This document shows, in pieces, positions 26,095 to 26,789 of a DNA stretch of 34,638 nucleotides. The DNA is from Syntrophomonadaceae bacterium (GTDB lineage: Bacteria; Bacillota; DSM-12270; Thermacetogeniales; Thermacetogeniaceae). A program made the position numbers and the translations under genes. The DNA lies in contig JAAYWP010000015.1 of the NCBI GenBank assembly GCA_012516535.1, forward strand, positions 1-34,638, in the 5' to 3' direction. The stretch's first letter is position 1. Each line of letters starts with the position of its first letter. Under the pieces are notes generated by a model. The model had not been told where the DNA came from. It was given only the letters and a program-made list of their open reading frames with translations, and did no database searches.

Positions 26095-26232
26095 TTATAA
26101 AGGCCTTTTTGCAGGCACTCCTGCCCTGCGAGGATATTTTTCAGGTGTGACAGCTGTTTTTTCCACTACCACTACATGTCTCCCCCTCTCTCCAGGAAAG
26201 GAGTAGGGGATCACCTTTTCCAATCTGCCTCT
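26095..26232 (-). pseudogene. rsmG: Out-of-frame C-terminal remnant of rsmG
   Basis: In the -1 frame relative to the upstream rsmG frame, this stretch reads [18 protein letters not shown], then [19 protein letters not shown] and VPAKRPL before TAA at 26095. This is the conserved RsmG C-terminus, recognisable by KYPR-x-GxPxK. It has no start of its own. Joined to the upstream frame with a small insertion it would restore a protein of about 240 residues, the normal Firmicutes length. A deletion of 3n+1 bases near 26226-26231 is the simplest explanation. Confidence 0.88.
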
Positions 26233-26789
26233 TTAATCTCTTCTTCTATATTAAAGCCTTTAAGAGCCAGAAATTTTCCTCCCTGCTTCAATAATGGCAT
26301 CGCATATTCCAACAATACATTTAAAGGTGCCAAGGCTCTGGCTACTGCACAGTCATAAATCCCTCTGTGTTCTCCCTTGTGGCCCAGATTTTCCAATCGA
26401 TCCCAGATAACAGCACACTTTTTTAAATGTAGTTTATCGACCACTAGTTGTAAAAACTCAGTTCTCTTTTTACGGGCATCTACCAGACTGACCTCAAGTT
26501 CGGGGAAGCAGATTTTTAACGGCACACCAGGGAAGCCAGCTCCGCTTCCCAGATCTATTAGCCTGCAGTTCTTTCGAAAATTAAACCCAAGTCTGCACAT
26601 CAAAGAGTCGAGAAAATGCAGCCTGTATAATTCCTCTTCACTTGGGCAGCTGACCAAATTGATTTTTTCATTCCAATATTTAATCAATTGGCTGTACAAT
26701 TTAAACTTCTCTAATTCCGCACCAGCAAGCTGGATACCGAGCTCTTTTGCACCGCTGACCAGTATCTTTTCAGCTGATCCCACTTTCAT
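26211..26789 (-). CDS. rsmG: 16S rRNA (guanine-N7) methyltransferase RsmG, truncated by frameshift
   Basis: RsmG methylates G527 of 16S rRNA with SAM; its loss gives low-level streptomycin resistance in other bacteria. The N-terminal and SAM-binding parts are intact ([68 protein letters not shown]). The frame ends early at 26211 after [11 protein letters not shown], giving 192 residues against about 239 normally. The missing C-terminus lies immediately downstream in the -1 frame (26095-26232). ATG 26789 overlaps AAAAGGTG; GTG 26783 is a possible better-spaced start. mnmG, normally upstream, is absent. Whether the short protein works is unknown. Confidence 0.85.

Follow-up and report, generated by a model that had tools for sequence, protein, structure and literature searches.

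A probable recent loss-of-function deletion in rsmG of an uncultured Syntrophomonadaceae bacterium

Introduction

RsmG (GidB) makes m7G527 in the 530 loop of 16S rRNA, and several bacteria acquire low-level resistance to streptomycin when it is lost (PMC9456066). In streptomycin-resistant mutants of D. geothermalis, rsmG was inactivated with ISDge6 (PMC9456066), and M. tuberculosis isolates carrying rsmG/gidB loss-of-function alleles are among the work cited in PMC10117853. In a Vibrio screen, on the other hand, rsmG inactivation lowered fitness in tobramycin (PMC10117853), so that the aminoglycoside response to RsmG loss depends on both the drug and the host.

The gene described here belongs with the RsmG/GidB proteins of B. 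subtilis (1XDZ), T. thermophilus (3G88) and E. coli (1JSX), all members of PF02527, with which it has an N-terminal domain and a SAM-binding core in common. Its locus beside mnmE and parAB is likewise shared with the known systems. Unlike them, it lacks 28 bp and goes out of frame ahead of the final strands of the fold. It resembles the null alleles of streptomycin-resistant mutants in that a non-essential 16S rRNA methyltransferase has apparently been inactivated spontaneously, but it was found in an uncultured bacterium with no known selection, in which the resistance residues of RpsL are as in relatives.

The window, the whole 34,638-nucleotide stretch of DNA analysed, is a complete contig (C46) of a draft metagenome-assembled genome (MAG), which totals 1.84 Mb over 162 contigs, with 82% completeness and 2% contamination. 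The closest relatives compared were three MAGs of the same genus (G001–G003), referred to below as congeners; no 16S rRNA was present in any of the four MAGs, the window's included. Public records with the same protein are Clostridia, Syntrophomonadaceae and Syntrophaceticus MAGs, which are typical of anaerobic digesters, and the source is probably an uncultured bacterium from such a digester.

Results

The rsmG reading frame is split

The features of the locus are collected in Table 1. The in-frame 5′ part of rsmG, which starts at 26792 or at an ATG at 26789, encodes 193 residues comprising the N-terminal domain and the SAM-binding core, and ends at DWKR* (last codons TGG AAA AGG TGA). Its product matches PF02527 (GidB) with E=3.6e-47 and 160.5 bits (cut-off 27) over profile positions 2–160 of 184, a match that includes the SAM-binding motif within the GidB/RsmG domain, and is 77–83% identical to congener RsmG by tblastn. 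The conserved RsmG tail (LEKVIPYS...) lies 3′ of the core, out of frame and uninterrupted by a stop; over 42 residues it is 86–88% identical to congener tails (tblastn). Each congener RsmG gave two collinear tblastn matches, one for the core (frame −2) and one for the tail (frame −1), and for this reason the match in the second frame is not due to chance. An initial annotation made from the sequence had read the locus in the same way, with a core frame that stops at 26211, a tail in another frame downstream, and a total length (26095–26789, 695 bases) of 3n+2; all of this was confirmed, as was the junction it had placed at GAGGCA, which reads TGCCTC at 26226–26231 and GAGGCA on the minus strand.

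Table 1. Coordinates of rsmG, its neighbours and the sites of sequence loss in the window
Feature	Position	Strand	Basis
rsmG 5′ part	26211..26792	-	PF02527; identity to congeners
rsmG 3′ tail	26095..26223	-	identity to congener tails; other frame
deletion junction	26223..26231	-	DNA alignment: 28 bp in all three congeners, absent here
mnmE	26805..28208	-	intact upstream neighbour, 467 aa, 89–91% identical to congeners
parB + parA	23717..25448	-	intact downstream neighbours; Pfam, congener comparison
noc scar	25675..26094		blastn synteny; noc plus flanking non-coding DNA in congeners

Synteny with the three congeners places the gene at the orthologous position, beside mnmE and near parA-parB and dnaA, and since an intact mnmE adjoins it upstream we regard this as the usual rsmG locus. 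Given the stop at 26211 and the 28-bp deletion, it does not encode a complete fold through the C-terminal tail in a single frame. No second rsmG was found in the window's genome, where the sole other match to PF02527 was a sub-threshold methyltransferase.

A single 28-bp deletion separates the gene from its relatives

In all three congeners rsmG is intact at the same place, in a single frame of 250–254 aa. In a DNA alignment with these genes, the coding sequence of the window's rsmG shows a single gap, 28 bp long, between GAGGCAGA and TTGGAAAAGG, with clean flanks and no N. Of the two sizes put forward earlier for a 3n+1 deletion, 25 or 28 bases, the alignment thus gives the longer. In relatives the deleted DNA encodes ...NALQILGGR, and its absence removes about nine to ten residues, in agreement with the previous estimate of roughly ten.

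When the shared genes of the contig (about 25, annotation-sized and counted by eye) were searched with congener proteins by tblastn, only rsmG was broken and none of the others was frameshifted. In a class-wide survey of 20 genomes, a matched rsmG was truncated elsewhere only in G011 (G011:C58, L029), from another genus of the family, and this case was rejected because a run of N in the scaffold interrupts the gene. In the same survey rsmG was not seen in G010 and G017, both draft assemblies.

Absence of sequence decay

Pairwise dN/dS values for the core were 0.18–0.20 in pairs that include the window and 0.18–0.21 among congeners. Changes unique to the window's rsmG (8.5 amino-acid and 13.5 silent) were no more skewed than those of relatives (Fisher p=0.46), and those in the tail amounted to 0 amino-acid and 2 silent. 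The earlier proposal of recent decay is therefore upheld, in that this lineage has no excess of amino-acid change, tail included. This pattern suggests that rsmG was under selection until very recently, or that the break is not fixed in the species. Because rsmG is the sole broken shared gene and shows no such excess, the break either happened very recently, is a strain variant, or stems from the draft state of the MAG.

Selection by streptomycin accompanied by an rpsL mutation was also considered and rejected. No resistance change was found in rpsL, the K43, K88 and P91 regions of RpsL being the same as in relatives, and since RpsL is normal nothing points to streptomycin selection.

Possible origin of the deletion

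Slippage between two GAGGCA copies had been offered as the mechanism in the initial annotation, which predicted a second 9-bp copy, GGAGGCAGA, in the intact gene. None of the three relatives has this copy. The flank pairs are GAGGCAGA/GGCGGCAGG in G002, CTAGCAGAT/GGGGGCAGC in G001 and GAAGCAGAT/GGAGGCCGG in G003, and they contain perfect homology at 28-bp spacing of 5 bp (GGCAG), 4 bp and 2 bp, respectively. Homology of at least 5 bp occurs in 12 of 720 possible 28-bp deletions in G002, which makes the G002 repeat mildly unusual, not decisive. Slippage during replication, between short repeats of the GGCAG type spaced at 28 bp, may have produced the deletion. This mechanism is plausible, but with homology of 5, 4 and 2 bp in relatives and no second 9-bp copy it is only weakly indicated, and the case is weaker than claimed. 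A longer match may have existed in the ancestor, although none of the sequences displays it. A DNA hairpin promoting deletion was rejected, as the intact congener region folds no better than shuffled sequences (z=-0.57).

Interpretation of the broken gene

We consider it likely that a single recent deletion of 28 bp disrupted, in this lineage, an rsmG orthologue encoding the 16S rRNA m7G527 methyltransferase. As the sequence stands, translation ends at 193 aa, and the protein loses its final ~42 residues as well as the ~9–10 deleted ones. Alignment of the window's RsmG with B. subtilis GidB (1XDZ, 240 aa) stops at residue 183, and the equivalent of approximately the last 55 residues of 1XDZ is missing or out of frame. 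In a class I methyltransferase, the final strands of the central sheet lie within this stretch. The lost residues would correspond to the terminal helix and strands of the methyltransferase fold; because of this loss, the product is predicted to be inactive and probably unstable, and 16S G527 in the sampled cells would be expected to lack methylation.

A less probable explanation, although one with appreciable weight, is that the break is an artefact of assembly or consensus, or a variant carried by a minority strain of the sampled community, and that rsmG of the species is intact. The data come from a single draft MAG, a fragmented one, in which an assembly or strain-mixture error would look alike, and the G011 scaffold demonstrates that assembly can produce a falsely broken rsmG. 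The intact genes of all congeners and the lack of any sign of relaxed selection fit this explanation as well, an absence of sequence decay being equally expected from an artefact, and the shortness of the relatives' repeat (2–5 bp) also counts against a true deletion. A cleanly flanked 28-bp gap without N is, however, atypical of short-read or homopolymer error, the other shared genes in the window are all unbroken, and the repeat is probably too short to confuse an assembler using ordinary k-mers. It is very improbable that RsmG still works, whether split into two translated parts by re-initiation at TTG 26223, through a −1 frameshift, or as an active 193-aa core: the tail frame does begin with TTG a few bases downstream of AGAGG and overlaps the core frame by 13 bases, with this TTG just before the stop, but every version lacks the residues of the deleted 28 bp, which lie inside the methyltransferase fold, and the gene is single-frame in all congeners. 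A programmed frameshift was rejected on the same loss of fold residues and on the lack of a usable slippery heptamer, a slip back on TGG AAA AGG TGA giving mismatched GAA/AAG.

The observation is real and its explanation ordinary, a probable recent loss-of-function deletion. If the deletion is genuine, it is a further naturally occurring null allele of an rRNA methyltransferase that is conserved but non-essential, and low-level streptomycin tolerance and altered decoding would be expected; laboratory and clinical mutants have already made such effects of rsmG null alleles familiar. More broadly, this lineage is undergoing erosion at the rsmG-noc end of the operon.

Loss of noc and other changes around rsmG

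The three congeners all have noc, a second ParB paralogue that functions in nucleoid occlusion, immediately downstream of rsmG; this gene is absent from the window, whose genome has only one ParB_N gene. Only short collinear remnants are found in the noc scar, where the congeners have 2.0–3.7 kb of noc and non-coding DNA; the scar contains one parS-like palindrome at 25800–25815. In addition, the bactofilin and M23-peptidase genes (~1.3 kb) of all three congeners are missing between 21961 and 21976, a near-precise deletion. These losses, neither of which was reported in the initial annotation, are at least as interesting as the rsmG break. They are probably older, as whole genes are gone and the noc scar is strongly diverged. 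The absence of mnmG next to rsmG is not a further loss, since it lies elsewhere in all relatives checked and in the window's genome.

In parB (23717–24589), 12 amino-acid and 20 silent changes are unique to the window lineage, against ~11 and ~59 in the three congeners together (Fisher p=0.02, one test of several). The extra changes are possibly tied to the loss of noc. A link between the rsmG and noc losses, in which the operon end became dispensable without Noc and ParB adapted, would make this lineage a naturally arisen test of life without Noc and RsmG; we regard it as speculative and unlikely.

Between parA and noc, G001 (G001:C35:7648-10400, L043) and G003 (G003:C174:18460-20777, L042) have an AT-rich stretch of 2–3 kb without a long ORF, containing one or two parS palindromes. 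The exact palindrome ATTTCCCGGGAAAT, which we take to be the core of the Noc-binding site, occurs inside the coding sequence of noc-like genes, where it is translated as I-S-R-E-I/M. This holds for 12 genomes (L064–L066, L068, L080–L084, L091, L092, L097) and, by coordinates, for a 13th, G018. No mention of a Noc-binding palindrome inside the noc coding sequence was found in the literature examined. The window's genome, which is without noc, has no exact copy. The palindrome takes two different positions: in the family of the window's genome and in G061 it occupies the linker before the C-terminal domain, and several other families have it immediately ahead of the TERH motif. For five members of the window's family (the three congeners, G018 and G007), the copy in noc is the sole exact copy in the genome.
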